Positions 23,963-56,610 of a stretch of 64,000 nucleotides of DNA are shown piece after piece. The stretch is from Pontibacter sp. G13 (lineage in GTDB: Bacteria > Bacteroidota > Bacteroidia > J057): positions 1 through 64,000 of the forward strand of contig NZ_CP134698.1 of NCBI RefSeq assembly GCF_031851795.1, in the 5' to 3' direction. Every line of letters begins with the position of its first letter. The stretch's first letter is position 1. Position numbers and translations under genes: made by a program. The notes below the pieces were generated by a model. That model was not told the origin of the DNA and did no database searches. It worked only from the letters and a program-made list of their open reading frames with translations.

Positions 23963-24006
23963 GGATTCCTATTTGGGAAAATCGGGGCATTTTTAGGGGG
24001 GAAATA

Positions 24007-24069: not shown

Positions 24070-24080
24070 ACAGGAACACC

Positions 24081-24653: not shown

Positions 24654-24655
24654 CC

Positions 24656-26312: not shown

Positions 26313-26341
26313 GTCAAGGGTATTGCAAGGTGAATGGTCAG

Positions 26342-26806: not shown

Positions 26807-26819
26807 CTGTCTATTAGGC

Positions 26820-27224: not shown

Positions 27225-27271
27225 CGATACATGGGCGTCAAGGTGCGGGAGCATCCGGCCGGACCCTCCCG

Positions 27272-28408
27272 TCACCCAATGGCACTACTCAACTCAAACA
27301 TGGGCAGGTACATCGCCACCAAGATCACGGCGACCATGGAACCCAGCATGACGATCAGGACCGGTTCCAGCAATTGGGTCAGCTGCTGGACCAAGGTCTG
27401 GGTTTCAGTTTCATATTGCTGTCCCATCCGCTCGAACATCAGGGCCAGCGAGGCGGTGCGTTCACCGACTGCCACCAACTGGATCCATGAGGGCGGAAAG
27501 ACATCGTGACGGGCTAGTGCCTCATGCAACGGCATCCCCTGGATGACCAATTGCCGAGACATTTCGAGCGCATCCCGCATCCGCCACATCGAAAGGGCAT
27601 GTGCCCCCTGGACCAATGCGGCATCCAAATGCATGCTCGCTCCCAGCATCATGCCCAATGCTTGGGACAATCGGGTCAATTGTAATTGGACGTACAGACC
27701 GCCCAGCACAGGAAGCCGTTCCAGCAACCGCTGGCCCATCCGGATCACAGCGGGTTGTTGGCTGCCTTTCCAGATCCCGAGAACCCAGACGAACACAGCG
27801 ATGAATATTACCCAGCGATAGGCGATCAAGCCATCGGAAACCATCAGCATGAATTGGGTGATCTTCGGCAGTTCCGCATCGAATCGTGCAAATATGTCCT
27901 TGAACATGGGCACCACCACTCCCAGCATAAAGCCCAGCACCACCACGGACATGCCCACTACCGCAACTGGATAGGTCAAGGCCTGCTTGAGGGTCCGCTG
28001 TAGATTCAGCTGACGCTGGAACCATTGCCCCAAACGCTCAAGTACCGCCCCCATCTCTCCGGTATGTTCGCCGACCTGAATCGTACTGATCTCGAAATCG
28101 GAGAACATCCCCTGGGCACGCTTCATCGATTCGGACAGGGACATTCCCGCCGCCAGATCCGCTTTCATCCGCTGGACCATCGTCCGGGTCTCAGGACGGG
28201 GAAGCTGTCCTTCGATCATGTCCAGAGATTCGATCAAGCCCGGTCCTGCTCCCAACAAGGCGCTCAGCTGTACATAGAATCGTTGCCGATCCTTCAGGGG
28301 GAGTTTCCTGCGTCTCGGGCGTATGGCTGCGCCCCTCGCGATCGACCTTTGAGGGTTGACGGGGTCATGATTCCCGAAGCTTGCCGGGAGCTGCATGCCC
28401 CTGCTCAT
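27272..28408 (-). CDS. gspF: Inner-membrane platform protein GspF-like
   Basis: This 378-residue protein has two GspF/PilC repeats: FYVQLSALLGAGPGLIESLD with GEHTGEMGAVLERLGQWFQR, then LTRLSQALGMMLGASMHLDA with VGERTASLALMFERMGQQYE. Three membrane segments are present near residues 150-170, 200-220 and 350-372. It connects the ATPase to the pseudopilus. The start at 28408 overlaps the preceding stop (ATGA), so it is translationally coupled. Confidence 0.92.
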   Translation of the reverse strand: MSRGMQLPASFGNHDPVNPQRSIARGAAIRPRRRKLPLKDRQRFYVQLSALLGAGPGLIESLDMIEGQLPRPETRTMVQRMKADLAAGMSLSESMKRAQGMFSDFEISTIQVGEHTGEMGAVLERLGQWFQRQLNLQRTLKQALTYPVAVVGMSVVVLGFMLGVVVPMFKDIFARFDAELPKITQFMLMVSDGLIAYRWVIFIAVFVWVLGIWKGSQQPAVIRMGQRLLERLPVLGGLYVQLQLTRLSQALGMMLGASMHLDAALVQGAHALSMWRMRDALEMSRQLVIQGMPLHEALARHDVFPPSWIQLVAVGERTASLALMFERMGQQYETETQTLVQQLTQLLEPVLIVMLGSMVAVILVAMYLPMFELSSAIG

Positions 28409-28839
28409 CTCACTTTCCCATAGGAAGTAGCCGCGAACGTATACTTCAGCCTCATCAGGGAATCTTCCAGTATCCACCGATCTTGGTGAATGCTGAGGAG
28501 ATTTCCGGACAGGGTATCCCCTTCATCTTGTGTCCACCTCACCATTCCGGCAGGCGTACTTTCATATCGAATCCCGACAGGGAGGCCGTTTCGTTCCAAT
28601 TCCCACAACTCCGGCTCTATGGCCTGCCACGATTGCGCTTCCTTCATGTCCTGCCCGACGATGTGCCAAAGGTCCATGAATCGCCATGTGCGTTCCATCT
28701 GCTCATGGTATCGGGCCTGGGCCCCGAATGTACTCCGGATCAGGAAAGCCCCCGTCAGGGATACCATTCCCATCAGGGCCATGGCCACGAGGGTTTCGGT
28801 CAAGGTGAAGGCACGTAGATTAGGTTGAATCTGCTTCAT
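28405..28839 (-). CDS. Minor pseudopilin
   Basis: The 144-residue product carries the class III signal RAFTLTETLVAMALMGMVSL (cleavage before Phe is unusual: the residue before FT is Ala rather than Gly; the Glu at +5 is present). It has a short hydrophobic helix followed by a globular domain rich in Trp. The ATG at 28839 is chosen over a GTG at 28845. By position it would be GspI- or GspJ-like; which one cannot be decided. Confidence 0.75.
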   Translation of the reverse strand: MKQIQPNLRAFTLTETLVAMALMGMVSLTGAFLIRSTFGAQARYHEQMERTWRFMDLWHIVGQDMKEAQSWQAIEPELWELERNGLPVGIRYESTPAGMVRWTQDEGDTLSGNLLSIHQDRWILEDSLMRLKYTFAATSYGKVR

Positions 28840-31865: not shown

Positions 31866-34800
31866 TTACTTGCTGACCATCACGCGTTTCACTGCGACTT
31901 TAGCGCCATCAGTGATGCGGATGATGTACACGCCTTCAGCCATGTTGGTGAGATCCAGACGCTCGTTGAAATCTCCGTAGACATGGTCGCGGGAAATTTG
32001 CTGAACGGCACGTCCTTGGGCATCCAACACGTCGATGCGCAACTGCTCGGCCTCTACGCCCTCAGCCACAACGAATACTTCGCCAGTGGTTGGGTTCGGG
32101 TAGACCTGGAGGGCACCGCCGAAGAGTTCTTCGTCGATATCCACACCGCCGACGATGAATTCGTAGGTGCTGACACCACACTCATTCACAGCAGTCAAGA
32201 CGACTGGGAAGGAACCTCCGAAGGCGTAGGTATAGACAGGATGTACATCCGTGCTGATACCGCCATCCCCAAAGTCCCACTCGAAGTCCGTACCCGCAAT
32301 TGGGCTGGACAAGTTGGAGAATTCGATGGTGAAGTCGCCGTCGTTGTTGTCGTAGGTAGCGTCGGCCACCGGTGTGAAGTTCAGTGCAACGTCTACGCTG
32401 TCCGTAGCTTCACAACCATCGGTGTTCACGACTGTCAAGGATACCATTCCGGAAGTGGAAACCATGACATCGGTTCCGGTTGCTCCATTGGACCAAGTGT
32501 ATGTGTATCCGGCCTCAGGAGCTACGCCCAATGCCACACTATCACAGCCAGTCGTGTCAGCTCCGAGGTCTACAGTAGGCGCTACACCTGCTGCGATTAC
32601 CACCTCGTCAGAAGCGACACAACCATCAACGGAGGTTACGGTGACGGAGATCGTGTCCGCTCCAACTGTAGGCGCCATCACGTTGATCTGCTGGGAAGTT
32701 GCCCCATTGGACCAGTCGTACGTGTAGCCAGTACCTGCACCTGCATCGAGGGTCACGTCCATACATGTCTCCATGTCGTTGCCCAAGTCCACCATTGGGG
32801 TTGGGTTGATCATGATTTCGATGGTGTCGGTAGAAGTACATCCGTTGGCAGTAACGGCTACCCAGTAGGTACCGGACTGAGTTGCGGTGTACGTCTGGGA
32901 TACTGCACTTGGATCAGACCATACGTAGAGTGCGCCAGGGTTTCCGGCATCCAATTCGTATTCCTCACAAGCGTCGGCATCTGCACCCAAGTCTACAGCT
33001 GGGGATGGAGTTACGAAGAATACCACGGTGTCAGCACCGGTACATCCATTCATATCCACAACGTCTACTGTGTACATACCCGTCTGGTCAACCGCATAGG
33101 TAGATCCAGTCAAGGTAGAATCGCCATTCCAAACGTAGGAGACGATAGATGGCAAGTACGCGTCCAGCTCGAATCCGGAGCACACAGTTCCATCTGCACC
33201 CAAGTCTACCGGTACATCACTGAGGAATTTGGCCACAGCCTTGGTAGGCTCGGAGATACATCCCAAAGTGGTCACGTTCCAGTCGTAGAAGAAGTAGTAA
33301 TAGCCAAAGCTCTGACCAAGACCATTGTCGGTGTCCTTGATGGTCAATGCGTTGCCTACAGACATCGGATAGGTTGCCCCATTGAAGTTGTAACCCGGTC
33401 CGGTGAATCCAGCAAACAGAGAGCCGTCAGCAGTGATGAGATAGTCGTCCCCGATCGGAATATCCCAATCCAAGGTGAAGACGGTGTCATTCACAGTTCC
33501 ATAGAACAGGTAAGTCGTGTCATTCACGATGTTACCGGCATTGTCCCGGATGGTGATACCGACAGTACCTGGAGCTGGCAAGAACATTCTGAGCGTGTTC
33601 AGACGGAATGGCTGATGCGCATCGAATACCAGACCACGGAAGGTCGCACTGGTGAAGCTACCGCTACCGATGGATTGGTCCGCAGGGGTGAATCCAGTCT
33701 GGAGAGCAGGATTGGCTGCCGCTGCATAGTATGCACGATCTTCAGTCAATACCCCTGTGTAGAGGGTATCTCCCAATTGCAACACGTTCATTGCAGAGTC
33801 ATACCAGAGGATGGTTCCAGCAGCGGGCTGCTGAGCTACCAACATGAACTCGGCAGAGTCAGTCGCACAGGTGGAATCACCGAAGGTGATCGGCGCATCC
33901 GGAGTCTGGTTGACCAAGACGGAGAATACCGTCGTGTCGCCGAGGGTCAAGGTATCACCCGCCAATGTGGTGTAGGCAGTCAAGGTATAGGTTCCCGGCA
34001 TAGACGCGTTAAACGTTCCTGCGGAGAAGGTTACCGTGTCATTTACTGCCAAGGTATCGGTGTAGGAGAAGTTCACGGTGCTGTTGACAGGACCGGTCAC
34101 GTCTACCACAACAGGGACGGTGTATTGGGTATCCAATCCGTAGTTGGCTACGGAAAGCATGATTTCCAAAGAGTCGGTGGTACAAGTCTGGATGCCTGGG
34201 TAGTCCACAGAGATCACGCCTACGTTGTCGGTAGGACGATCGTAGATCACCACGTCATCGAAGGCAAATCCTTCTGTCTGGGAGAAGGTGTTGGAACCGA
34301 AGGCCACACGGAGCTTCACGCTCGCCTGTCCACCCAAGCCAGTCAAGTCATGGGATGCCTTGATCCAGCCACCGGAGTTGTCATACCATCCATCTCCTTG
34401 GCCACCTGGGTTTCCGGACATGTTGGCAGTGTTGAACCAGTTGACAGCATCGCCTACAGATCCGACATTCTGCCAGGTAGTTCCACCATCGATGGAGGAC
34501 TGGAGTACAGCACCATCGCCGAAGAACGTCTCGTAGTTGATCATCAAGTCGATCACCGGATTGGTCAATGCGGTGAAGTCGAAACATGGGCTGATCACGG
34601 CACTCTGCTCAGACGTGTAGTAGTCGGAAGAATCTCCGGTTACCCACGCATTCACACCTGATGCAGCACCTTGGATAAATTGCCCACCTGGTGTACCGAT
34701 TTCCCAAGAGCTTGGAGATCCGTCGCTCAACCAACCTTCAGCACCGTTTTCGAAGTCCTGAACGTATGGGTAGTTGGAAATGGTCGGTACAGACACGACC

Positions 34801-37800
34801 TCGTAAGTCAAGGTGTCATTGGCCACGTTGATATCACCCGCAACGCCAGAAGTCCACACGGAGACGGTATAGGTACCGGCATTGGCAAACGGCTGGTTGT
34901 TGATGAAGAATGGCGCAAAGCTACCCGGAGCGATGGTATCGGTAGAAGCAACAGAACCACTGGAGACGGTGTTACCGCCCATTTCGATGTGGTAGTTGAC
35001 AGTCATGCCACCATTCAAGGTATCGAGACCGAGGTTGGCCAGTGCCACTACGATGTCTTCTTGGTTGGTCAATCCACAACCGGTCTCAGGCAGGAAGTTC
35101 AGGGCGATACCTGCATCCTGTGGGATCAAGTTGAGGATGTTCACGTCATCGATTGCGATATCGTGGCCCCAGCTAGTGGATCCCTCGCCACGGAAGCGGA
35201 TGGAGATCACTCCTGTGTAGGCACTCAAATCTACCTGTACGAAGGTCCAGTCATTGACACCTGTGCTGCCCAATGCAGGGATTACATCTTGGTATACAAC
35301 GCCATTCTCCTCGATATCTACGTGCAAGATATTGTCCGCAGAGAAGGTAGATGGGTTCAGAGAGTGATACCAGAAGGTCAACATCGCCTGGTTGGTGTAG
35401 CTCAGGTCGAAACATGGGGAAACAACTGTTACCGCAGTATCGCTGAAGCCACCATCCTCGAGGTAGATGTAGCGGCCATTGCCAGTGGTATGGTCAGCCA
35501 AAGGTCCTGTACCGGAGCTCGGCGTATTGAATTCGGTTACGGTCCAATCGTGTCCGTCTCCCTGAAGGTTTTCCCAGCCGTTGGACAAGGCGATGACAGG
35601 ATCTCCATCGTTGAAGATGGTGCCGTTCATCGGGATGGTGAAGTTGTCGAAGTTCTCCGTCCATGGGAAAGAGGTGATCGCAGGCTTGTGGATCACGATG
35701 GTATGGAGGGTGTCATTCCCCGCATCTGGATCAGATGGGTGGGAAGTGAACATGGAGATGTTGTAGGTACCCTGAGCACTCAAGTCCAATGGAGTGTTGA
35801 ATACGTAGGTAACGGTATCTCCAACCGCCAAGGTATCACCATAAGCTTCGATGACCGCAGTACCGCCATTCACTTGGTATCCAAGGTTTAGGCCGATCAG
35901 GTCTTGTGCGCCTTTGTTGGTCATGACGAAGGAAACGATGCTGCTGTCGGACAAACCACATCCGGAAGCAGGAGACAGTACTTCAAGTGCCGCAGCGTTG
36001 TAGGCTGGAAGCTCGAAGATCTCCACATCATCGAATGCAAATCCGTCATATCCATTGACAGAACCATCGGAACCGAAGGCCACTCGCAACTGTACGCTAG
36101 GCTGACCGCCCAAGCCTACCAGCTCATGCTCGGCCACTACCCATCCATTGGAACCATTGTTGTTGTTTCCTGTCCAAGCTTCCTGAGATCCACCTGGGCT
36201 ACCGTTGACTGTGTTGTCATTGTACCAGTTGTCAGGATCGCCATAGGAACCTACGTTCTGCCAAGTCAATCCACCATCGATGGAAGTTTGCAGAACCGCG
36301 CCATCCCAGCTCCACTCAGAATGCCACCAGATTTTCATCCGGACATAAGGGACAGTCAAGGAGGTGAAGTCGAAACACGGTCCCAAGACATAAGAGTCTT
36401 CGGAGTTGTTGTAGTTGCCAGTTCCAAGACCGCCTGTTACCCAAGCGCTGTCGCCGGAAGCCGCACCGATGATGGTGGATTTCGCAGGTGTACCAAACGC
36501 CCAAGAGGTATTGGTACCCATATCGGTCCAACCGCCTTTTCCGTTCTCGAATGTCTCCAGGTATGGATAGCTGGAAACGGAGGTGGAGAAGGTGTACAGG
36601 GTGATTTCAGTCGTGTCGTTGGTAGGCACGGTGTCGCCAGTCACTTCGGTCACCACTTGGATCGTGTGGTAGCCCGGAGCGGACAAGTCAGCCGTTGCGG
36701 AGAACGTAAAGCTCGTGGTATCACAAGCGTTCAAGGTTCCAGGAACCGTCTCTGCAGTGGAGAATGCACCACCGTCAACGGAGAAGGAAGCGGTGATGCC
36801 AGTCAGTGCCTGAGCACCGAAGTTGATCACATCTACCGTGATATTCTCGGATGCACCCAAGGAACAAGTCTGCTCAGGAGAAGTGATGTCTCCTGCTGCA
36901 ACGTCCACGGGAATCGGCGTGATGATGTTCACGTCGTCGATGGCGATATCACCAAAGGTGGAACATCCATATACGCGGAACACGAGATTGAAGGAACCTG
37001 TGATGCCGGAAAGGTCGGCCACAGCCTTCAGGTATGCATCAGCAGAAGAGGACTGCTGTTGACCGGTGACGGACCACAGAGAAATCTCTCCTGTCGGAGT
37101 AACCGCAATCAGTTCGAGTGTACCGATGTCATTTCCATACATGTGGTAGTAGAAGCTCACCTTAGGGCAAGACAAGCTGGATACGTCCAAGCATGGAGAC
37201 ATCAAGTCAAAGGTATCGGCAGGTACAACCCCAGAAGCTTCCACATGCATGTAGAGGGCTCCGTTTGGCGTGTTGTTGCCAGAAGGACCGGTGTTGGAAG
37301 AAGTGGTAGCACCCGTACGAGCTCTCCATCCCTCAAAAGCAGAGGTAGAAGTGGAGAATGCCTGCCATCCGTTTGGATACAGGGTCTGTGGGTTACCAGA
37401 AGTGAAGGTCTCGAAGTCTTCGTTGAATCCGTTGGAGTACAAAGGAAGCGCATCGACAGTCCCACTGGTGGAGTCGTTGAATGCATTCGGGTCGGCTACG
37501 ATAGAGGTGTATGCCGTGAAGGTATGGGTACCCGCAGCGGACAAGTCCACGTTGTTGGAAACCACAACATTCATGGTGCTGTCCACATCCAAAGTACCAC
37601 TAGTCAAAACGGTGGAAACACTCTGGGTGCTCGCGCCGCTGACATCGAGATGTACAGTCACGTTGTTTTGGGAGAAGTCCATCATGGAGCTACCCAAGTT
37701 CTTGACCTCGACGGTTACAGACTCATTGGGTCCGTAGCAAGATGGGTCAAGCGGAGATACGATGGCAGTTGCGCCCATATCTACCGGTACCGCTTGGAAC

Positions 37801-39137
37801 AACATCACGTCGTCGATCGCCATATCGCCAGTGTAGCTGGTACCACGTGTACCTACAAACTGGATCTGGATGGTCTGACCGTTCCAGTAGCTGACATCGA
37901 TAGATGCCTCCATCCATGGATCGGAGCTCGCAGTCTGCTGCTGCCCAGTCAAGGTCCACACCAAAGAATCCTGTCCACCGGACAAGATATGCACTTCGAG
38001 GGTTCCCATCGTGGCACCGTACATGTGGTACCAGAAGTTGAGCTGGGAAGAACCCGTAGCTGCAGACATGTCCACACATGGAGAAGTCAGGTACTTGGCA
38101 TCGCCAGTGGAACCGGAAGAAGTCTCGGTGAACATGTAGTTGGAACCACCTTGAGTGTGGTTGCCATCAGGTCCAGTACTGGAAGAAGGCGTACCGGAAG
38201 CGTCCACATACCATGCGAATGGCGTACCGTTGCTGGTCCAGCCATTGGCCAATGTCCCTGGAGTTCCGGTCGTGAAGGACTCGAAATCCTCGAACATGGG
38301 GAAAGTGATAGCGGCAGGTGTAGTGACCGTGATGCTTGTCGTGTCATTCGAAGCATTCACATCGCCAGTCACCTCAGTCCACACATCGATGGTGTAAACC
38401 GTGTTCGGGTTTGGCAGTACGATTGGAGTCGCGAAGGAAACCGTGTCCTGAATTCCTCCCAGCAGAGACGCCAGGGTTGTCATGACAGGGGTGCCACCAT
38501 TTACAGCGTAGTACACATCGAGGTTGGAAAGGGAGTTGGCTCCGAAGTTGCCCACGACCGCATCGAGGGTAACACCTGAGCCAAATACGCTACAGTCGCT
38601 GGCCAATGGCAGCACTGCAGTCACACCCGCATCGTCACCAGTGGCAGCTGCCAAGGTGACCGAGTAGTCCTCAGTCTCACCATAGGAGGTGGATGAACAA
38701 GGACCTGTAGGAATGGAGAACGAACGGCTCATCATACGAAGGCGCGTCGTAGTCAAGATCGCAGTAGCAGGTACCGTGAAGGTAATGCTCTTGGTCTCTC
38801 CTCCTAGCAGGGTCTCGCTACCGAGTAGCTCGTCATCCGTGAATACCTGGTCGTTGTTGTAATCGATCCAAGCGGATACTCCCATCGTTTCCGTCGGGTT
38901 GTTGACGATCGTCGCCGTGTAGGTTTGTCCACGGTGCAGGGTCGTCGTGTCGTTCCCGGTGTAGTCATTGTAGCCGCTTGTCGCGCCGGGATAGGTGCCC
39001 GTGATCGTCCCGACGGAAAAACTCGAAATCGAGTCTCCGAGGGTCGTTCCGGTAAAGTACGTAGGGGTACAATACTGCCCGTACATACTGCCTACCCACA
39101 TGACCGACAAACAAAGAAGGGTCAATAATTGCTTCAT
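31866..39137 (-). CDS. Giant modular T9SS-secreted surface protein (GEVED/MAM/CARDB/PKD)
   Basis: This is a 2423-residue protein. Order: signal peptide (MKQLLTLLCLSVMWVGSMYG); GEVED domain at about 22-165; five MAM-like modules, each beginning with a variant of F-x-E-x-F-E-x-F/N-G and containing the pattern SPC-x-D-x-S/T, alternating with CARDB-like spacer domains, at about 170-1640; a two-part ligand-type module at about 1640-1880; four short Ig-like repeats starting VDLGAD/VDLGND with a Cys each, at about 1885-2210; a PKD domain (FEWDFGDGGISTDVHPVYTY); and the T9SS type A tail (LQVYPNPTTGEVFVVAEGVE to VAVKRVMVSK). It is an adhesin-like or matrix protein exported through T9SS and anchored or released at the surface. 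No catalytic domain was recognised. Confidence 0.9.
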   Translation of the reverse strand: MKQLLTLLCLSVMWVGSMYGQYCTPTYFTGTTLGDSISSFSVGTITGTYPGATSGYNDYTGNDTTTLHRGQTYTATIVNNPTETMGVSAWIDYNNDQVFTDDELLGSETLLGGETKSITFTVPATAILTTTRLRMMSRSFSIPTGPCSSTSYGETEDYSVTLAAATGDDAGVTAVLPLASDCSVFGSGVTLDAVVGNFGANSLSNLDVYYAVNGGTPVMTTLASLLGGIQDTVSFATPIVLPNPNTVYTIDVWTEVTGDVNASNDTTSITVTTPAAITFPMFEDFESFTTGTPGTLANGWTSNGTPFAWYVDASGTPSSSTGPDGNHTQGGSNYMFTETSSGSTGDAKYLTSPCVDMSAATGSSQLNFWYHMYGATMGTLEVHILSGGQDSLVWTLTGQQQTASSDPWMEASIDVSYWNGQTIQIQFVGTRGTSYTGDMAIDDVMLFQAVPVDMGATAIVSPLDPSCYGPNESVTVEVKNLGSSMMDFSQNNVTVHLDVSGASTQSVSTVLTSGTLDVDSTMNVVVSNNVDLSAAGTHTFTAYTSIVADPNAFNDSTSGTVDALPLYSNGFNEDFETFTSGNPQTLYPNGWQAFSTSTSAFEGWRARTGATTSSNTGPSGNNTPNGALYMHVEASGVVPADTFDLMSPCLDVSSLSCPKVSFYYHMYGNDIGTLELIAVTPTGEISLWSVTGQQQSSSADAYLKAVADLSGITGSFNLVFRVYGCSTFGDIAIDDVNIITPIPVDVAAGDITSPEQTCSLGASENITVDVINFGAQALTGITASFSVDGGAFSTAETVPGTLNACDTTSFTFSATADLSAPGYHTIQVVTEVTGDTVPTNDTTEITLYTFSTSVSSYPYLETFENGKGGWTDMGTNTSWAFGTPAKSTIIGAASGDSAWVTGGLGTGNYNNSEDSYVLGPCFDFTSLTVPYVRMKIWWHSEWSWDGAVLQTSIDGGLTWQNVGSYGDPDNWYNDNTVNGSPGGSQEAWTGNNNNGSNGWVVAEHELVGLGGQPSVQLRVAFGSDGSVNGYDGFAFDDVEIFELPAYNAAALEVLSPASGCGLSDSSIVSFVMTNKGAQDLIGLNLGYQVNGGTAVIEAYGDTLAVGDTVTYVFNTPLDLSAQGTYNISMFTSHPSDPDAGNDTLHTIVIHKPAITSFPWTENFDNFTIPMNGTIFNDGDPVIALSNGWENLQGDGHDWTVTEFNTPSSGTGPLADHTTGNGRYIYLEDGGFSDTAVTVVSPCFDLSYTNQAMLTFWYHSLNPSTFSADNILHVDIEENGVVYQDVIPALGSTGVNDWTFVQVDLSAYTGVISIRFRGEGSTSWGHDIAIDDVNILNLIPQDAGIALNFLPETGCGLTNQEDIVVALANLGLDTLNGGMTVNYHIEMGGNTVSSGSVASTDTIAPGSFAPFFINNQPFANAGTYTVSVWTSGVAGDINVANDTLTYEVVSVPTISNYPYVQDFENGAEGWLSDGSPSSWEIGTPGGQFIQGAASGVNAWVTGDSSDYYTSEQSAVISPCFDFTALTNPVIDLMINYETFFGDGAVLQSSIDGGTTWQNVGSVGDAVNWFNTANMSGNPGGQGDGWYDNSGGWIKASHDLTGLGGQASVKLRVAFGSNTFSQTEGFAFDDVVIYDRPTDNVGVISVDYPGIQTCTTDSLEIMLSVANYGLDTQYTVPVVVDVTGPVNSTVNFSYTDTLAVNDTVTFSAGTFNASMPGTYTLTAYTTLAGDTLTLGDTTVFSVLVNQTPDAPITFGDSTCATDSAEFMLVAQQPAAGTILWYDSAMNVLQLGDTLYTGVLTEDRAYYAAAANPALQTGFTPADQSIGSGSFTSATFRGLVFDAHQPFRLNTLRMFLPAPGTVGITIRDNAGNIVNDTTYLFYGTVNDTVFTLDWDIPIGDDYLITADGSLFAGFTGPGYNFNGATYPMSVGNALTIKDTDNGLGQSFGYYYFFYDWNVTTLGCISEPTKAVAKFLSDVPVDLGADGTVCSGFELDAYLPSIVSYVWNGDSTLTGSTYAVDQTGMYTVDVVDMNGCTGADTVVFFVTPSPAVDLGADADACEEYELDAGNPGALYVWSDPSAVSQTYTATQSGTYWVAVTANGCTSTDTIEIMINPTPMVDLGNDMETCMDVTLDAGAGTGYTYDWSNGATSQQINVMAPTVGADTISVTVTSVDGCVASDEVVIAAGVAPTVDLGADTTGCDSVALGVAPEAGYTYTWSNGATGTDVMVSTSGMVSLTVVNTDGCEATDSVDVALNFTPVADATYDNNDGDFTIEFSNLSSPIAGTDFEWDFGDGGISTDVHPVYTYAFGGSFPVVLTAVNECGVSTYEFIVGGVDIDEELFGGALQVYPNPTTGEVFVVAEGVEAEQLRIDVLDAQGRAVQQISRDHVYGDFNERLDLTNMAEGVYIIRITDGAKVAVKRVMVSK

Positions 39138-39474: not shown

Positions 39475-39706
39475 GCATAATTTTCGAAAAAGGAATTTTA
39501 TCAAACATTGATATTCAACCTATTCACATCTCCAGATGCTAGATCATTTGCGAATTGATTTCAACGGCAAAACTGTTTGCAGTTTGGTTATTGCCGGCAC
39601 TCATCCGAGGTTACAATTTCTTTATCTGCCAAAAATCGCCCGAAACATGGGTAGGAATTGGGGAAAAACAGATACGTCTAGCGTCCGGAACTTCAGTAAA
39701 ACCAAA

Positions 39707-39730
39707 ACGGCCCTCCGATTGGAGGGCCGT
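39707..39730 (-). terminator. Terminator of the RHS/small-protein operon
   Basis: ACGGCCCTCC pairs perfectly with GGAGGGCCGT around a 4-base loop. On the minus strand it is followed by TTTGGTTTT. It lies about 70 bp after the stop at 39801. Confidence 0.85.
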
Positions 39731-39800
39731 CTGGGCAGTCCATACCACTGGGACCATTTGGCGGTCTGCCGCGCTTGATCTTGCAGAGCGGGAAAGGGGA

Positions 39801-40310
39801 TTAGGGGTTTTCTACCAAAGAAATCTTGGCAATGAAATCCTCTTTCAAGAAAAAGAGGAAAATCTCTCCGTCCGATATATCACCATTCTCCAGCAAAAGG
39901 AGAACTCTAACAACTTCGAAATTCTCATTTCCCCATGGGTATCTGTTATTATAGGAATTGGGAAACCTAGACTTCACTTCCCTAGCATGGTCTCCAACCT
40001 TTAAATCCAGAATACTGAATCTAGTATCTAGCAGGTAAAAACCTGTGATAATCTTCCCTTGCTCAATGAATTTGGTCTTCCCGTAGTAAATCTCTCTAAG
40101 ATTTAACTCTTCCATTTCCGCATAAGAATACTCAACAACTGAATCAGGAGCCCCAAAAGCTTCGTGCAGCATTTCGACTTTAGGGAATAAAGGCACTTCA
40201 TCAGAAATCAGAATACCTTGCTGGGGATAGGAGTCAAACCTCTCGGTTTGTCCCACGGAGTAATTCATGAAAAGAATTACCGAACCAAAAAACATTAGCG
40301 ACTTTAGCAT
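39801..40310 (-). CDS. Small exported protein, candidate immunity protein of the RHS-M23 toxin
   Basis: This 169-residue protein begins with a signal peptide (MLKSLMFFGSVILFMNYSVG, then Q) and has no transmembrane segment afterwards. The mature part is acidic and beta-rich (EEGIL-type strands, LREIYYGKTKFIEQGKII, EIFLFFLKEDFIAKISLV). It lies 27 bp downstream of the RHS gene, on the same strand and just before the operon terminator, in equally AT-rich DNA. Immunity proteins sit in this place after polymorphic toxin genes. Because the toxin tip is a peptidoglycan peptidase, a periplasmic location would be required, and the signal peptide provides it. No family was recognised, so immunity is an inference from position and localisation. 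Confidence 0.6.
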   Translation of the reverse strand: MLKSLMFFGSVILFMNYSVGQTERFDSYPQQGILISDEVPLFPKVEMLHEAFGAPDSVVEYSYAEMEELNLREIYYGKTKFIEQGKIITGFYLLDTRFSILDLKVGDHAREVKSRFPNSYNNRYPWGNENFEVVRVLLLLENGDISDGEIFLFFLKEDFIAKISLVENP

Positions 40311-40337
40311 AATGGTCGATTGAAATAATCAAATGGT

Positions 40338-43300
40338 TTATCCTTCCACTTTCAATGCAACATCCTCACATCCCCCCATTACCGGAGTTGGATTCTCCTT
40401 TTGAGCTTGAGGATTCGGAGTAGCTTGAGGATTTCCACTTTCGTCAAACGCCGTATCAAAAAATTGAAGTGGGTCTACAAACCGAGAATCTCGATATCGC
40501 CCACTTTGACTGACTTTTGCGTAAATGTGGACATGCTCCTGATCCTTTGCTATACCGACTGAATTACCCGTAGTTCCTGCTTTCCCAATTTCTGCTCCCT
40601 CTTCAATCAGTCCCCCAATTTGAAAGTCTCCTATTTCACTTAAATGCCCATAGGCAATGAATAGCGTTTCTCCCTCCTCACTGGTGGATTTCACAACTAC
40701 GTAGTTTCCCAAATTCCCATGATAGCCGACATTGAAAACAGTTCCTCCTTTGATGCTCTGAATAGGCGAACCCTCCGGTGCGAGGATATCGACTCCATTA
40801 TGGTACTTGGTTCCGCTATATCTCGTCCATCCGAACATTCCCCCCCGGACGCCACTTCCATTGGTTGGGCGAATACGGGGATCCTTGACCGGATCACCAT
40901 CCAGTCCCACGACCCTCCTGCCATCGGGATCGACAAACCGCACGGGATTGCCCAGCGTGAACGCATAGGGGCTCCAAGGCTCGTAGTCGGCCGCCAGCGG
41001 GTCCACCCCGCCCCATCGCCCGATCGTCGGCAGATAGCTCCGGGCGCCGAAATCGTACCACCCGCTCCATCGTCCGCGCTCCTTCCCGCTGTAGAGGTAC
41101 CGGTTGTCCGGCAGCGGATGCTGCTCCGGCGAACGGGGCATCTCCAGCCCCATCGGATAGTACGCGCTGACCTGCCCGACATCCTCCCCCGACTCCGGGT
41201 CGGGATTGACGAAGCCGTCCCCGTCGCGGTCCCCGAACAGCACACGCACATTCCCCAGATGGTCGCGGATCATGTACTCGTGCCGCCACCCGTCGGCCTC
41301 CGGCACCACGCGGCCCTCACGGGTCATCACATGCGACAGCACCGGAACCAGACCCGTGCCGTCGTCCACCCCCCGGTAGCGGAAATCCCCCACCCGGTCC
41401 TCCCGCCATTCCTCCTCGTCCATCGGCACCAGCACCGTCCCGCCGTTGCCGTCGGACTGCGCCACCAGGCCGCTCTGGACCCCGCGGGAGCGCAAACGCC
41501 TGCCGTCGGCCGCATAAATATGGCGAATCGATTTATTATTGTAAAATAAATATTCCACAGGATTGTCCAGCACATCGTAGGTAATCGACAGGATCCCCCC
41601 ATCGAGGTCCTGCGTCAGGTTGCCGTTGGCGTCGTACCCGAAGTCGGCCCCCGCATGGGACCCGTCCGCGAACGAGGGCCACCCCGATGGGACGCCCGAC
41701 ACGGCGTCGGACACCCCCTGCAGCCGGTTCCCCGCCCCCCCGTAGGTGTAGGACAGGTCGTCCATCAGGCCCGTGGCGGGACTGGCGTACGTACCCCCGG
41801 TCAGTCCGTACCGACGCAGCGAGGTCAGGTTCCCGTTGCCGTCGTACGCATACGACGCGTCGAAGCGCCCCAGATCCCCCCAGATCCCCGACGTGTCGGA
41901 CAGGCGCCCGTACTCCGCGGACACCAGGCGGTCCATCGGGTCGAACGAGAAGCCGTACCCGCACACCGCCGCCCCATGGGGCGTGCTCCAACGCACCCCG
42001 GAGGGATTGCCGTTGTACTGGCCCGTGGCCTGACCCGCGAAGGGAGGCCCCCCCGTCTCGTAGGACACCGACTCGGCGAACAGGTCGATGTTCTCCCCGC
42101 TCCCGAACCCCTGCGCCCACAGCGTAGCCAGCCGGAGGACCGTCGTCTGCACCACCGACGTGCGCTGGGCGGCACTCAGCCCGCTGGTGGACAGCGCCTG
42201 GTACAGCCCCGACTCCACCACCGTACGCCAGTCCCCCTGTCCCTGCCGCAGCACCCGTGCGGGAACGGCCAGCGGAACCGTGACAGACGTCGGCAGCTTG
42301 CCCGCGTCGAAGCTCCCCGGCACGTCATGGGAGATGGAGATCGACGTATCCGCCGGCACCGCATCCGAATCGCCCGTGGAACGGACGAAACGGACCCGCT
42401 TCTGCCCCAGCGAGACCTGGTACTTGAAGTCCCCGAAGCCCTGGGACACGTTGCCGCCCCCCTTCCCCGAAGACGGCTGGGACACCCAGCTCAGCGTCAT
42501 CATCGACAGCGAGTTCAGCTGGTAGGCCGTCGTCAGGTCCGGCTCGCCGCCGAGGCCCGCCGTGGACGCCGGGTCGTTGAGCGAATGGAACTGGCCCGAC
42601 AGCGTGTAGCGCCGGTCCAGCGTCTGCAGGAACGTCCCGCCCCCGGTCCCGTGCAGGGACTCCCGGACCGGCTGCCCCAGCTCGTTGTACCCATGCAGGG
42701 CCACCATCACCTCGGGGCCGTCCCCGATCCGGAGGTGCCGCTCCAGCGGACGGCCCCGGTGGTCGTGGACATACCGCGCACGGAGCGTGTCGCCCTGTCC
42801 GTTGGCGGTGTGCACCCGCACCTCCCGGACCAGTTCCCCCGTGAAGGCGTACTCGCGGGACACCTCGTCCTGCCCGCCCAGGTGGTGGTCCGAGACCGTC
42901 TGCACCTCCCGCCCGAACTTGTCGTAGTACGACCGCGTCGACAGCCACTCCGGCATGTCCGGATCGGGGTCCATGATCCGGATCTTCACCCCGGTCGGAA
43001 GCCCCGAAGCACGCGGGGAGATCCCACCCGGCAGGGACGGCATCTCCGGCAGGGGCCGCGGGACCTCCCAGGCGTCCAGCTGCCCGTTGCGGTCGAAGTC
43101 GTAGCCGTCGAAATAGGCCACCGTCAGGAGCTCCGTCCCGGGGGCCGACACGTCCGGATACGCCTGGTTGCCGTACCCGTGCAGTCCCGTGCCCGGGGAT
43201 TCATCCGGCGAGAACGTCCCCGACGCCCAGTGCTGCGCCAGTTCGGCCGACAGCGCCTCCGGCGTCACGGCCGGATGCGCGCAGGTACCCGTCATCACCA

Positions 43301-44363
43301 CCCGGCCCAGACCGTCGTATTTCCGGAAGGACCACTTCCCCGAGAGCCGCTGGTTCCCGTCCTGGCTCAGGATCGGGCGGTCCCCCGGATCGTACACCTG
43401 GAAGACCCAGTCGGCTCCCGGCACCTTCCGCCCCGATACACGCCCACGGTGGTCGTACCGGTACCGGAGCGACCAGTTGTCCAGCAGCGCCGCATCCGCC
43501 ACCCAGCCATTCTGCCGGAGCGCCCCGACCCCCTCGGGCTGGATCACCGCACGCAGGCGCCCCAGCTCGTCGAAGATCCGGTAGGTGCTCGCCCAGTCCT
43601 CCAGACCGCCGGCAGCCGACGGGTCGGCCGACGGATCGAGCTGGACCCGCACCAGCACCGTGCGACCGAAACGGTCCACGTATTCGCAGGATCGGTGGCC
43701 GTTGGGGTCCGTCGTGGTCAGGACCTCCAGCTCCCCAGCGGCATAGGTCCCCGCAGTCGAGATCCCAGCGGGATGCACCTCCCACTTCCGCACACCGTCG
43801 ATCCCGTACCCCGAAGGGTCCAGGGTCCGGTACGCATGGTCCGTGGTGTGCCCCTGCGAAAGACCGCCCGCATGCCCGGGACGCCCCGAAGAGGTCGGCC
43901 GAGACAACGGGGAGGACTCCCACGCCCGGTCGGCGAAGGCCGACTGGCGGTCTACAGCCGGAAGGTGGCCCAACTGCTGCCACGAGTCCTGGACGAAGCA
44001 CGCAGAATGACCGCCAACCGGATCGGACACGAACTCCCCGTCGGGACTACCCGCGTCCACATGCGGAAGCCACTGGCGGGGCTCAAGCCCCCAGGCGTCG
44101 TATGCGTGCCATTCCACCAGCGCATGCTGACCTGGCGTCGACTTGGGAAGCACATGCTGTACCGCACGGCCCAGCCCGTCGTAGTACGTCACCGCATCCT
44201 CCGTGCTCTGGAGGTTGTCCAACGCTTCCAGCGCCACGGCCGAGGGAATCTCGGTCCGGGCCGTACGCACACGGACGTGGTTGCGATCCAAGGACTGGGA
44301 TCGCAGATCGAGGGGAAGGACGAGGCAACACGCCAACGTACATCCCATGAAAAAATATCTCAT
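40338..44363 (-). CDS. RHS-repeat protein (DUF6443-type) with C-terminal M23 peptidase tip
   Basis: This is a 1341-residue protein. Signal peptide (RYFFMGCTLACCLVLPLDLR); DUF6443-like N-terminal region with VTYYDGLGRAVQHVLPKSTP; many YD repeats (GLGRVVMTGTCAHP, DKFGREVQTVSDHH, YDHRGRVSG); and the RHS core ending RYLYSGKERGRWSGWYDFGA, GRWGGVDPLAADYEPWSPYA and NPVRFVDPDGR at about residue 1145. The remaining 195 residues carry a peptidase M23 domain with HNGVD and HVHIYAK, the metal and catalytic residues of LytM endopeptidases. The ATG at 44363 gives the signal peptide. The core is very GC-rich while the tip (40338 to about 40860) is AT-rich. It is probably a contact toxin that cleaves peptidoglycan. 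Confidence 0.88.
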   Translation of the reverse strand: MRYFFMGCTLACCLVLPLDLRSQSLDRNHVRVRTARTEIPSAVALEALDNLQSTEDAVTYYDGLGRAVQHVLPKSTPGQHALVEWHAYDAWGLEPRQWLPHVDAGSPDGEFVSDPVGGHSACFVQDSWQQLGHLPAVDRQSAFADRAWESSPLSRPTSSGRPGHAGGLSQGHTTDHAYRTLDPSGYGIDGVRKWEVHPAGISTAGTYAAGELEVLTTTDPNGHRSCEYVDRFGRTVLVRVQLDPSADPSAAGGLEDWASTYRIFDELGRLRAVIQPEGVGALRQNGWVADAALLDNWSLRYRYDHRGRVSGRKVPGADWVFQVYDPGDRPILSQDGNQRLSGKWSFRKYDGLGRVVMTGTCAHPAVTPEALSAELAQHWASGTFSPDESPGTGLHGYGNQAYPDVSAPGTELLTVAYFDGYDFDRNGQLDAWEVPRPLPEMPSLPGGISPRASGLPTGVKIRIMDPDPDMPEWLSTRSYYDKFGREVQTVSDHHLGGQDEVSREYAFTGELVREVRVHTANGQGDTLRARYVHDHRGRPLERHLRIGDGPEVMVALHGYNELGQPVRESLHGTGGGTFLQTLDRRYTLSGQFHSLNDPASTAGLGGEPDLTTAYQLNSLSMMTLSWVSQPSSGKGGGNVSQGFGDFKYQVSLGQKRVRFVRSTGDSDAVPADTSISISHDVPGSFDAGKLPTSVTVPLAVPARVLRQGQGDWRTVVESGLYQALSTSGLSAAQRTSVVQTTVLRLATLWAQGFGSGENIDLFAESVSYETGGPPFAGQATGQYNGNPSGVRWSTPHGAAVCGYGFSFDPMDRLVSAEYGRLSDTSGIWGDLGRFDASYAYDGNGNLTSLRRYGLTGGTYASPATGLMDDLSYTYGGAGNRLQGVSDAVSGVPSGWPSFADGSHAGADFGYDANGNLTQDLDGGILSITYDVLDNPVEYLFYNNKSIRHIYAADGRRLRSRGVQSGLVAQSDGNGGTVLVPMDEEEWREDRVGDFRYRGVDDGTGLVPVLSHVMTREGRVVPEADGWRHEYMIRDHLGNVRVLFGDRDGDGFVNPDPESGEDVGQVSAYYPMGLEMPRSPEQHPLPDNRYLYSGKERGRWSGWYDFGARSYLPTIGRWGGVDPLAADYEPWSPYAFTLGNPVRFVDPDGRRVVGLDGDPVKDPRIRPTNGSGVRGGMFGWTRYSGTKYHNGVDILAPEGSPIQSIKGGTVFNVGYHGNLGNYVVVKSTSEEGETLFIAYGHLSEIGDFQIGGLIEEGAEIGKAGTTGNSVGIAKDQEHVHIYAKVSQSGRYRDSRFVDPLQFFDTAFDESGNPQATPNPQAQKENPTPVMGGCEDVALKVEG

Positions 44364-44388
44364 GTGTCTGTTTGTTCTTGCAGGATGG

Positions 44389-47300
44389 TCAATGCGTGAG
44401 ATGGTAATCGTAGCCCAAGCGGAAATCGCCATTGTCGTCGATCACATAGCGGATTCGTCCCAATTCGTCATATTGGTAATAGGTGCAGAATCCGTTGGCG
44501 TCAGTCACGGTGTGGACGAGGTTGCGCGCATCGTAGCTCAGGGAAGTAAGCTGCGCACCCTCTGGCATCCATCGGAGTTCGTCGATCAACGAGCCAGCTG
44601 GTCCTGAGATGGAGACTCCATTGTTCGATCCGGTCAGCTCCACGAGATAGGATCGGAAGGTCCAGCCCTGAGCGTCGGGTCCATCGACCGTGGGTGAGCC
44701 GATGATATTCCCTCCGGATATGGAGATACTCGGGGTTCCCAATTTGTGGTAGAATCCAAGCTGGTAGGTCCCGGGAGGCATAGTTCCGAGATCCAGCTGG
44801 AGGTTATTGCTCCACACATAGGCATATTCTCCTGCCCGGGCGTCCGTACTCAGCGTGGGCAAACTACCCGCTAGAGACAGGCACTCCCATCTGGCCTGAT
44901 CACATGCCGCTCGGTCCGAGGCGCTCCCCGCTCCCTGTACACATCCTGCCCAAGTGGTCCGGCAAGTAGGGAGATAGGTCACATCCCAATTCCCCAATAC
45001 CCATCCATCGAAGCCTGTGTAGGCCACCTCATCAGCCGAGGCACCTACCACCTTGCCGATGGGAAGTCGCTGTCCATACCCCCACAGGTAACTCTCGGAG
45101 GCCGTAAAGTCAGCTTGTTGCCCCAGTAGGTTCCCATGAAAGTCGAAAGCCTCATACAGCAATCGGGATTCGTAGAAGGAGGTATCCGGCAACAGGCCGA
45201 CCCCATTCACCGATCGGACGAATGAGGATTCATCGACGGGATCGGCCACGGAAAATGCAAGTACCTCTTGGGGAAGGATAGCTCCCTCAAGTCCAACTTC
45301 CGGCCAATAGCCATAGGCATGATACTCCCCACCTGCCAACTCCAATTGGCCGGAATTCCCGACCAGTCCCACCTTCTCAATGACGGGATTGAGCATATTG
45401 CGCGCCTGCATGGTGTCAATGACCGGGTTCTGTCCCGAAGCGAAATCCCCTGCCCGGAATTGCTCCTCGACCTGCTCCTCTCCATCGATCCCGACCATGA
45501 CCGTGCCGGTACGCTGATGGAGATCATTGTACAGATACCGGAAGGCCTGCGTATGCGCCGGAGAATTGCCCTCGCCATACCTCAGGACCTTCATGGAATC
45601 CAGCCGCATCCATCCGCTCTGTCGCTCGAATCGCTTGAATTCGTATTGACTGAGGTCGTACAAGCCCGCGGTCAATACCTCCTCCCACATATCCGCCAGC
45701 AAGCCGGGGATCGTATGTACCAGAACACCCGTGTGATAGTATTGGTCCACTTGTACGGTATCTCCGACCGCATTCAGGATATATTGGGCCTTCATATTGC
45801 CCCGTGCCCAGTCCATGCTGGTATTGGCCAAATAGGGATATTCCAGCAGTCCTCCATCGGCATAGTTCTGGCAGGAGATGAAGTCCGTCACGGTCTTTCC
45901 GCGGTCGTTGCCGTTTTCGTCCAATTTCCGTCTCGTGACCTGTCGATAGCCCACATGACTGCCTTGGGTCAATCCGATGGGGATCTGCGAATGTGTGGCC
46001 CGGGAGGTATAGCGACAATCCAATTCGTCCGAATCCAACTCGAATTCCCACAGATCGCAGGTGAGATGCCAGATATTGCGGCTGGGATAGCTGTATTTGA
46101 TAGGGGAAACCAATTCGCCCGAAGAGAGCGAATCTTCTAGGCGATACTCGAAGACTTCCCTGCCGACCGCTCCTCCCCAGCCATCATGGGTGGCGATTTC
46201 AGCCACTCGGAGTCCCCCTGCCATTCGTTCACGGGTAAATACCTGCTGGCCATTCTGGAGGACGGGCACCCGATACAGTAGACCGATCGAAGCCTCGTCT
46301 CCGGAGAAATGGTTCTCGGCCCGTAGCTCGTAGGAGCCGGGGCCCAATTTGATTCGGGGGGATAGGTTTTCCCATTCCTCCGCATCCCCAGAGGCTCGAT
46401 GTTCAAAGACAATTTTCCCTTTGGAATCATAGACGCCTGCAGCAGGTCGCCATTTGTGAGTGGGAAGACAGGCCTTTTTAAGCCGGATATGGACCTCGAC
46501 CCACTGGGAGTCCGCCAAGGAGAACCAAGTACTGACCACTTCCTTGTTTTTGAGGAGCCCATTGCAGGTGTAGGTTTCCTCCTTGCCAGCCTTGGCAGTC
46601 GCAGCCGATGCACTATGCTGGGCGTATTGGGGTTCCTTTAGCCACGTACTGCCGATCCAACTATAGTCATGGGGTTCGAAGGTAAACTCACTCCAGCCCC
46701 CCGTGGGAAACGTGATGCGCTTGAGCGTTCCGATCTTCATGTGCTGCTCGCTGGGCTCGCGATCTGCTCCGGGCAACATCATGCCCAGCTCTTCGACAAA
46801 CAGCTCCGGCATGAGGCTGGAGTTGGTATATTCTCCATTGAAAAAGCCCCAGTGATCCTGAGCCACCGAATTGCGGGGCGGGAGCCAGCCCTCTCCTGCG
46901 CCTTCCCGGTACTCCAGATAGGTGGCCGGTTGAGCCGTGGCCCATTGTCCATCTTGCACCCCCACTTGCCGCACACTGTCCAGTCTGAGGCGCTTGTTCA
47001 TGGTCGGATCGTCAGGGTCGGGATGGTCCGTCTGGAAATATCCATGAAACAGCTCAACGGATTCCACCCAGATGTCTCCGACATACCGGCGAACCTCTGC
47101 GAGGGCATGATCTCCAGGGAAGTCCGCCCGGCCCGCTCCGTAGATGAAATCTACCCATTGGCCTTGGGCGAGGATTCGATCTAGTCGCTTGCCCACCTGC
47201 ATCTCATTGACATTCCGGATATAGACTGAGTAATCTCCACAATAGGCAGTTTCCGTTGTCTGGGTGGCACTGCCGTCATTGGCTTGATCGGTACACTGGA

Positions 47301-48264
47301 CCGTTCCCTCATCTTCCGCCAGCAGGTGATGGTCATGGGCATAGAAGGTCTCGTTGATGACCGATGGGGATGGCGTGAAATCCTCATACTCGAACACCAG
47401 GCTATCGGTTCGATTGGCGGTCACCACCTTGGTCAAGTACCAAGCCGTAATCATATATCGCTTCATTCCGGGGACCGATCCTCCTCCGGAACCAGACGAG
47501 GGGGTAGCATCATAGGTGATCTGCCGGGAAGACACCTCCTCATATTCCCGGAATACATACCGAGTACCGTCCCCATCCACCAGTTCCCATGCGACGATAT
47601 CGTCATTGATGAATTCGGGGGAGAATTGAAGGACCTGATCGCCATTTCCGACATGGATCATCGTATCTCGGTCGAGGGAGAATGTGCCCGAATGTCCCAT
47701 GACATTGAAGGCAAATGCATCCGGCTGGCCATCCAGTACGCCTGTTGCCACCTGTCTGAGCAGCGAATTGTTGTACAAATTATAGGGCGCAGCCGTGGGG
47801 TTGGCCAAGTCCATATCGGGCGCTACGGACAAATAGCCAAATTCCATGTTGGAAGCTTCGTCCTTGGGGCCACGGACCGTACGCGTGATCGCACCTCCCG
47901 CAAGCAATGACCAGCCTAGGCCAATCCTCGATGCCATTTCCTCAACCCGAATTCCCCCACCATGGTAGCTGAGGGACATGGGGAGTTCCAGTTGCCGGGA
48001 AGTCATGGTGAACAAGGGAATGGATATGTCCGGAATCCCCGTATAGAGGTTCACGGGGATGTGTCCGTATTTTCCGAGTGAGGCAGCCTCGGGAGATGGG
48101 GCCACGAATCTCGATAATACCGGGGGGTCGATTTCGGCCGCGTTGTATTGAGCCTCGACCTTAGCGGTACCGGCCAGAAGCCATAAGATTCCCAATAGGA
48201 ATCGGCCATAGCCTTCCAACCACCGATCCTGACGGATGGGTGGAAAATCCTTTTTGGCGAACAT
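44389..48264 (-). CDS. RHS-family partner protein without core or tip
   Basis: This is a 1291-residue protein. After an N-terminal signal-like stretch (GRFLLGILWLLAGTAKVEAQ) comes the conserved segment VNLYTGIPDISIPLFTMTSR and LPMSLSYHGGGIRVEEMASR, typical of the first gene of Bacteroidota RHS pairs. A large shell-like middle region follows, and the protein ends in a single YD motif (YYQYDELGRIRYVIDDNGDF). It lacks the RHS core, the DPxG cleavage site and any tip. It lies 25 bp upstream of the RHS-M23 gene and is likely co-translated with it; the two may form one shell or carrier complex. Confidence 0.8.
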   Translation of the reverse strand: MFAKKDFPPIRQDRWLEGYGRFLLGILWLLAGTAKVEAQYNAAEIDPPVLSRFVAPSPEAASLGKYGHIPVNLYTGIPDISIPLFTMTSRQLELPMSLSYHGGGIRVEEMASRIGLGWSLLAGGAITRTVRGPKDEASNMEFGYLSVAPDMDLANPTAAPYNLYNNSLLRQVATGVLDGQPDAFAFNVMGHSGTFSLDRDTMIHVGNGDQVLQFSPEFINDDIVAWELVDGDGTRYVFREYEEVSSRQITYDATPSSGSGGGSVPGMKRYMITAWYLTKVVTANRTDSLVFEYEDFTPSPSVINETFYAHDHHLLAEDEGTVQCTDQANDGSATQTTETAYCGDYSVYIRNVNEMQVGKRLDRILAQGQWVDFIYGAGRADFPGDHALAEVRRYVGDIWVESVELFHGYFQTDHPDPDDPTMNKRLRLDSVRQVGVQDGQWATAQPATYLEYREGAGEGWLPPRNSVAQDHWGFFNGEYTNSSLMPELFVEELGMMLPGADREPSEQHMKIGTLKRITFPTGGWSEFTFEPHDYSWIGSTWLKEPQYAQHSASAATAKAGKEETYTCNGLLKNKEVVSTWFSLADSQWVEVHIRLKKACLPTHKWRPAAGVYDSKGKIVFEHRASGDAEEWENLSPRIKLGPGSYELRAENHFSGDEASIGLLYRVPVLQNGQQVFTRERMAGGLRVAEIATHDGWGGAVGREVFEYRLEDSLSSGELVSPIKYSYPSRNIWHLTCDLWEFELDSDELDCRYTSRATHSQIPIGLTQGSHVGYRQVTRRKLDENGNDRGKTVTDFISCQNYADGGLLEYPYLANTSMDWARGNMKAQYILNAVGDTVQVDQYYHTGVLVHTIPGLLADMWEEVLTAGLYDLSQYEFKRFERQSGWMRLDSMKVLRYGEGNSPAHTQAFRYLYNDLHQRTGTVMVGIDGEEQVEEQFRAGDFASGQNPVIDTMQARNMLNPVIEKVGLVGNSGQLELAGGEYHAYGYWPEVGLEGAILPQEVLAFSVADPVDESSFVRSVNGVGLLPDTSFYESRLLYEAFDFHGNLLGQQADFTASESYLWGYGQRLPIGKVVGASADEVAYTGFDGWVLGNWDVTYLPTCRTTWAGCVQGAGSASDRAACDQARWECLSLAGSLPTLSTDARAGEYAYVWSNNLQLDLGTMPPGTYQLGFYHKLGTPSISISGGNIIGSPTVDGPDAQGWTFRSYLVELTGSNNGVSISGPAGSLIDELRWMPEGAQLTSLSYDARNLVHTVTDANGFCTYYQYDELGRIRYVIDDNGDFRLGYDYHLTH

Positions 48265-55402: not shown

Positions 55403-56605
55403 CTACCCCACCGGTAGGGACATTCGCTCGATCAATTCCAGACAGGCGCGGACATTGTGGTAGGGGCCTTTCCAGGGGCCTGCAAGCTCGACTTGGGAAA
55501 TCTCGCCCTCCAAGGTGATCCAGTCATGCCATTGGCCTGTGCGAGGTTCTATGAGATGTTTTCGCACAAATCTCCAGGTGCGCTGTGCATCTTGAAGATA
55601 TCGGGCATTTCCGGACAGTTGCCACGCATTGACCAGCCCGACCAGCGCCTCGGCCTGAGGCCACCAGTATCTTCTGCTGTCGATCAAGCCTGCAGGACCG
55701 GCTTCATAGACCCAGCCTCCGTCCTCCAACAAAGCCCGATCTATGCACATATCCATCATCTGGAGCGCCACGCGCCCAACCTCCTCGATCAGCGATTTGT
55801 CCCCAAGAACCTCCGCGGCCTCGAATAGGAGCCAACTGGCCTCGACATCGTGCCCGTAGGAAATCTCCTCGGCGATCGGTCTCCATTCGCGGTCAAAGAA
55901 CAGGCGCATGTGCCTCGTTTCAGGATCGATGATATGATCCAAAAAACTCCGGATGAGTCGACGCTGCACCCCTCGGAGCTCCTCATCCTCCCACACCCTG
56001 AGCAGATTGGTGAATGCTTCCAAAATATGGAGGTGGGTATTCATACTTCTGGGAGCATCCAGATCCTTGGGACTGAGCCGTTGTTCGGGCAGGAGTATCC
56101 ATTCCCTATTGAATGCCTCGTCAAATGCTCCCAGATCCTCATGCCATGCAGCTTTGAGGATCTGGCGGGTCAAATCCACAGCACGTCCCAAGGCATCCTG
56201 ATCTCCGGTGAGGCGTACATATTCGGCCCAAGCGTAGATCGCAAAAGCCTGCGCGTACAAATGCTTGCGATCATCTTGGGGGGTTCCCTCCGCATCCAAC
56301 ATCCAATACACACCTCCATGTGTGTGATCGGACACACTATGGGAAAGGAAATGGTTGGCGTGATCGGCCAGCGACCTGTATGCCTCGTTCCCGGTCACCC
56401 GGGCAGCGGCCGACCAAGTCCACAAAAGTCGAGCATGCAGAATGCCCCCCTTCTCCGCTTCCGGTTCGACCATTCCGGAAGCATCCGCCCGGCCGAAAAA
56501 TCCGCCCCGGGCCCCATCCTTCATCTGGTTGGCCCAGAATGGCAGGATCTCATCATCCATGCAGGACCTCAATTCCTGCATCCAGCTAAATTCATTCATG
56601 TCCAT
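55403..56605 (-). CDS. Cellobiose/mannobiose 2-epimerase (AGE superfamily)
   Basis: This 400-residue (alpha/alpha)6-barrel protein belongs to the N-acylglucosamine 2-epimerase superfamily. The three catalytic or substrate histidines of cellobiose 2-epimerases are visible in MNTHLHILEA (about 190), SYGHDVEASW (about 245) and GPWKGPYHNVRAC (about 385). Other matches are GGILHARLLWTWSAAARVTG and DRKHLYAQAFAIYAW. There is no signal peptide. It converts the reducing-end mannose of beta-1,4-mannobiose to glucose, giving the substrate for the GH130 phosphorylase at 12583-13768. It starts 5 bp after the GH26 gene, clearly an operon. A strong terminator follows. Confidence 0.92.
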   Translation of the reverse strand: MDMNEFSWMQELRSCMDDEILPFWANQMKDGARGGFFGRADASGMVEPEAEKGGILHARLLWTWSAAARVTGNEAYRSLADHANHFLSHSVSDHTHGGVYWMLDAEGTPQDDRKHLYAQAFAIYAWAEYVRLTGDQDALGRAVDLTRQILKAAWHEDLGAFDEAFNREWILLPEQRLSPKDLDAPRSMNTHLHILEAFTNLLRVWEDEELRGVQRRLIRSFLDHIIDPETRHMRLFFDREWRPIAEEISYGHDVEASWLLFEAAEVLGDKSLIEEVGRVALQMMDMCIDRALLEDGGWVYEAGPAGLIDSRRYWWPQAEALVGLVNAWQLSGNARYLQDAQRTWRFVRKHLIEPRTGQWHDWITLEGEISQVELAGPWKGPYHNVRACLELIERMSLPVG

Positions 56606-56610
56606 GCTTC

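Follow-up and report, generated by a model that had tools for sequence, protein, structure and literature searches.

The RHS polymorphic toxins, and among them the DUF6443 subtype of Bacteroidota, have a signal-peptide-like start, RHS repeats, a core that ends in DPDGR, a variable C-terminal tip, and a small gene immediately after it (Zhang et al. 2012, PMC3482391). All of these features are common to the locus described here, which lies in a 64,000-nt stretch of DNA (the window, the whole sequence analysed); it differs in that the neighbour of its tip, an M23 peptidase domain, fits no named immunity family. The term M23 is absent from those parts of the 2012 survey's text that were available to us.

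M23 peptidoglycan peptidases have been described as toxins among T6SS effectors: 162 WHIX effectors carry M23 domains and most genes adjoining WHIX toxic domains encode signal-peptide proteins (PMC12135965), and an M23 T6SS effector of Enterobacter bugandensis has a small downstream ORF (PMC10763514). Our locus has in common with them the M23 peptidase as the putative toxin and the exported or small neighbour. In contrast, those effectors lack an RHS carrier and are delivered by the T6SS, whereas here the carrier is an RHS protein predicted to be exported by Sec, and no match to the sheath family PF05943, a model that may miss the Bacteroidota type, was found in the genome. The TANFOR toxins of Bacteroidetes (PMC7073777) are alike in their phylum, in mostly having a signal peptide, in a possible link to the T9SS, and in a downstream immunity gene; they differ in their N-terminal domain, which is TANFOR rather than DUF6443/RHS, and in their tips.

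Results

An RHS operon with an M23 tip

The operon appears to comprise, in order, a gene for a 1291-aa RHS-type exported protein (44389..48264, minus strand; RHS_repeat E=0.00055), which is single copy in an own-genome search, the RHS toxin gene (40338..44363, minus strand), the gene for a small exported protein (39801..40310, minus strand), and a terminator. Between the toxin gene and the small gene there are 27 nt (40311-40337). About 70 nt 3' of the small gene lies an intrinsic terminator-like hairpin of 12 pairs, 8 of them GC, with a T-rich tail (39705..39732, minus strand), so the operon appears to close there. The count of terminator-like sites in the region is not above that in shuffled sequences; the stem at 39705-39732 is the one with the most GC pairs, and it sits at the operon end. 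Adjoining the operon on the same strand is a gene for a 2423-aa protein (31866-39137) with GEVED, repeated MAM-like domains, and a T9SS sorting tail.

The RHS toxin protein has a signal-peptide-like start (signal peptides at all loci were called by eye), followed by DUF6443 (E=9e-23), YD/RHS repeats (RHS_repeat E=3.2e-6), the RHS core, and the M23 tip; the ORF list allows an alternative start at an ATG at 44432. The RHS-associated core domain (40920..41162, minus strand; residues 1068-1148) matches TIGR03696 (Rhs_assc_core) with E=5e-14 and has the DPDGR motif at its end, with the tip next. The variable tip (40341..40905, minus strand) matches Peptidase_M23 (PF01551) over residues 1187-1282 with 55.8 bits against a cut-off of 28.7 (E=5.5e-15), and its motifs are intact: HNGVD at 40802-40788, GHLS, and HVH at 40535-40527. 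The domain searches thus agree with the first-pass annotation of this DNA, which had read by eye a core ending in DPDGR and then an M23 domain with HNGVD and HVH. In phmmer the tip gave a LytM-type alignment, aligning to LytM, ShyA, DipM, zoocin A, and lysostaphin. The tip has the M23 fold, complete in its metal-binding and catalytic motifs, and we predict that it would act as a zinc-dependent peptidoglycan endopeptidase. The only matches to the tip in a scan of genome contigs were remote M23 domains in unrelated phyla. An M23 gene in another genome (G284), 39% identical to the tip, was rejected as an RHS-M23 relative because its product is not an RHS protein.

Base composition changes sharply along the operon. 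The RHS core has 68.4% GC, the tip 47.3%, and the small gene 39.6%. The contrast between an AT-rich tip and small gene and a GC-rich core, which the first-pass annotation had taken as the mark of a swapped cassette, is real; but the core is itself an outlier, given a GC content of 55.2% for the window as a whole and of 55.8% for the upstream RHS gene, so that an AT-rich tip accounts for only half of the contrast.

A near-identical carrier with another tip

Our search of the organism's own genome (G000) revealed a second copy of the RHS gene at C1:5496992, with 99% amino acid identity up to residue 1156. In blastn the two copies have in common 3538 bp at 99.3% (window 40906..44443, minus strand; the C1 copy lies in L017), with 21 mismatches and one 3-nt indel, and the identity breaks directly after the codons for DPDGRRVVG (window 40906). 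The combination that the first-pass annotation had proposed to look for in other strains, this core with another tip and neighbour, therefore occurs in the genome itself. The C1 tip is about 226 aa, is unlike the M23 tip, and carries the motif LLRVHPDGGQLGTRGCIGL; 18 nt after it comes a gene for a different protein of 200 aa, also with a signal-peptide-like start. Searches of Pfam, PHROGs, and NCBIfam returned no match to the C1 tip. By inspection, from an H...GC motif read by eye and conserved in the two relatives of this tip (G084, G041), it looks LD-transpeptidase-like and is probably cell-wall-active. In function it is best compared with the T6SS effector Tlde1, which is an altered LD-transpeptidase (PMC9638812), and the resemblance is one of motif only.

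Few coding changes separate the two RHS copies (7 silent, 11 replacement, and one codon), so the duplication and the tip exchange look recent. On C1 the common stretch takes in, at its start, the last 55 nt of the window's upstream gene. Given that C1 keeps these 55 nt and that the full upstream gene has no second copy, the window arrangement is probably parental, or nearer to parental than that on C1.

About 12 kb before the C1 RHS copy, short orphan fragments of RHS cores form an array (C1:5473700-5484700; L016:11730-20000 and L017:55-2628) and have the leader SRLPSTPGYAQNCPLVGIIWIFVHLLCG in common. Each fragment has a different tip, most are followed by a small exported or lipoprotein-like gene, and one tip matches the SA1320 family; the array constitutes a reservoir of tips. 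Between it and the RHS copy is an IS200/Y1-type (REP-associated-like) transposase gene with a Pfam Y1_Tnp match (L017:6322-6867). An identical 153-aa gene occurs twice on C1 (L016:9301-9762 and 15809-16270).

Tips and their neighbours in other genomes

Relatives of the C1 tip sit on other RHS cores in two further genomes, with 45% (G084) and 48% (G041) identity. In both, the gene after the tip is a relative of the C1 neighbour (phmmer E=6.8e-23 and 3.8e-21, respectively, among the ORFs of the compared loci), and both of these relatives are lipoprotein-like. As far as gene order can tell, this establishes that the C1 tip and its exported neighbour move as one unit, in three genomes including the organism's own. 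Because this sister pair occurs on other cores, tip and exported neighbour appear to form the exchangeable unit for the core common to C1 and the window. Together with the break after DPDGRRVVG, the different tip and exported neighbour behind the C1 core, and the joint travel of the sister pair, this strongly supports the earlier reading of a swapped cassette.

For the M23 tip and the 169-aa protein, we infer the pairing from slot and position. No second copy of this pair was found over several hundred Bacteroidota genomes, and no relative of the small protein was found beside another M23 tip, so the window pair rests on position. RHS-M23 tips in three other genomes (G067, G232, G036) are followed by a lipoprotein-like gene, in families that differ from the small protein: one is a DUF4738 protein, one is unnamed, and one has Sel1 repeats. 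An exported neighbour thus recurs beside M23 tips, while its family varies. In G067 a further RHS-M23 gene (L058) is not followed by any small exported gene. Among plasmids, tblastn with the RHS protein found only DUF6443 cores at <60% identity, and with the small protein it found no match.

Several loci in these and other genomes are worth recording. Directly after the RHS-M23 gene on L058 of G067 is an IS200/Y1-type (REP-associated-like) transposase gene (L058:7527-8081), here without a Pfam Y1_Tnp match. In G232, five consecutive orphan RHS tips, the third of them M23, each have behind them a small gene of membrane or lipoprotein-like type (L060:1-9000). A locus in G156 with a VgrG-like gene, a large protein, an exported M23 protein, and further genes downstream (L064:2320-6001) looks like a Bacteroidota T6SS M23 effector locus. 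In G010, of the same family, the tip of an RHS protein with a similar core is DUF5675 (H...EGCLLPG), and a gene for a lipoprotein-like product of 245 aa comes next (L033:1-3150); this is another possible wall-active RHS tip with an exported neighbour.

The candidate immunity protein

The small gene encodes 169 aa, with a signal-peptide-like stretch at residues 1-21 (40248-40310), and Pfam, NCBIfam, PADLOC, and PHROGs contain no family that the protein meaningfully matches. It was described at first as a small exported protein of no known family 27 bp from the toxin gene, and so it stands; within the libraries searched, its sequence family appears to be undescribed. Sequence and profile searches of several hundred Bacteroidota genomes yielded a handful of relatives, most with a signal-peptide-like or lipoprotein-like start, and a scan of genome contigs yielded none. 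In the stretches read around these relatives there is no RHS or M23 gene beside them; among the relatives found, the small protein is thus not conserved next to RHS genes with unrelated tips, a pattern that the first-pass annotation had named as counting against its reading. In one genome, G067, a relative of the small protein occurs on its own, within a series of small secreted proteins, and RHS-M23 genes are present as well. The neighbours in L017 and L063 were considered as further relatives, but hhalign did not support them.

An AF2 model of the small protein built from eight trimmed sequences has a mean pLDDT of 79.9 and a pTM of 0.68 and consists of two successive alpha-plus-beta units; a model from three sequences was poor (pLDDT 40.6). 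The best PDB match of the eight-sequence profile is 3d4e, a putative beta-lactamase inhibitor protein, at a weak E=0.0064. In Foldseek the best interpretable match was 9uu1, an immunity protein of the Bacteroides fragilis T6SS (probability 0.96, E=0.24); BtiO, BamE, and BLIP-I were also listed, all of them weak, with best E-values of about 0.2; no PDB match had E <0.001, and the fold search against viral structures gave no significant match. The model has two alpha-plus-beta units in common with the beta-lactamase-inhibitor-like and BamE-like exported proteins; it differs from them in having no significant Foldseek match and in that a profile comparison shows no match between its two halves, hhalign giving no support to the idea that they are matching repeats. 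The model and the weak profile match suggest a BLIP/BamE-like build, which we take as a lead and not as a result.

Discussion

We regard 40338-44363 together with 39801-40310 as a genuine toxin-immunity cassette of the polymorphic type, belonging to a kind already known, in which the small protein is the putative immunity component. On the evidence of sequence and gene order, we think it quite probable that the locus is an RHS polymorphic toxin operon with an exchangeable M23 tip and an exported inhibitor for the producer, tip and small gene being swapped as one cassette. The RHS protein would be exported via Sec and probably displayed or released. The M23 tip, as a zinc endopeptidase, would cut peptidoglycan cross-links in the periplasm of a competitor, and the small protein, exported to the producer's own periplasm, would bind and block the tip, so that producer and kin would be protected. 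Since the RHS protein has to cross the producer's own periplasm, an exported inhibitor would be needed there, which could explain the signal peptide of the neighbour. Tip and small gene would have come in as one cassette behind the conserved core, right after the DPDGRRVVG codons. We infer the tip's role as toxin, its substrate in competitor peptidoglycan, the delivery route, and inhibition by direct binding. As for that route, the T9SS component SprA is present in the genome; the RHS protein itself has no match to the T9SS sorting tail (Por_Secre_tail, PF18962), and the adjacent 31866-39137 protein has one.

The small protein might instead have nothing to do with inhibiting the tip: it could be an unrelated exported protein, a chaperone, or a delivery helper carried with the cassette. 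Its relatives occur singly, as exported proteins at a distance from RHS and M23 genes, and among several hundred genomes none is linked to M23, as would be expected if this were so. However, the same slot on C1 holds a different exported protein that travels with its tip in three genomes, a hallmark of immunity, and the slot, spacing, and terminator of the window gene suit an immunity gene; the lone relatives, for their part, may be orphan immunity genes. We therefore consider a non-inhibitor role unlikely. Less likely still, and in our judgment improbable, is that the RHS-M23 protein is a surface protein that remodels the cell's own wall or takes part in digesting prey or dead cells, the small protein being its regulator. 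M23 domains are common in housekeeping wall remodelling, and the genome, a large one of the Bacteroidota, encodes many secreted proteins. In contrast, exchange of the tip behind a near-identical core, a separate neighbour for each tip, and the orphan RHS tips arrayed at another site in the genome are all traits of polymorphic toxins and not of a housekeeping hydrolase.

With the small protein taken as the producer's inhibitor, we propose tentatively, and with some doubt, that it is a periplasmic M23 endopeptidase inhibitor of BLIP/BamE-like build from a sparse family of exported Bacteroidota proteins, whose lone members may represent orphan immunity genes directed at wall-cutting toxins, M23 or others. 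The first-pass annotation had proposed that tip and neighbour would be a new pair. This holds for the neighbour, whose family is apparently undescribed; the wider combination is less novel, given that RHS-M23 proteins with exported neighbours recur in Bacteroidota and that M23 T6SS cases have been published.

The exchange of tips within this genome is unusually clean, with two carriers that differ almost only in tip and neighbour. The two-copy carrier is a natural experiment on the specificity of toxin and immunity, in which the protection given by each antidote should extend to its own tip and to no other. M23 peptidases remodel bacterial walls, and protein inhibitors of them are therefore of general interest; a natural binder would be a tool for their control.

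Elsewhere in the window, at 17380-28477, there are type II secretion-type genes (secretin, T2SSE, T2SSF). Contig C3 (92.9 kb) carries them and may for that reason be a chromid or belong to the chromosome, instead of being a small plasmid. Two clusters of mannan-type carbohydrate genes, at 8173-13765 and 55406-57759, include genes for GH3, a sodium symporter, and GH130, and for GH26 and a GlcNAc 2-epimerase family protein.
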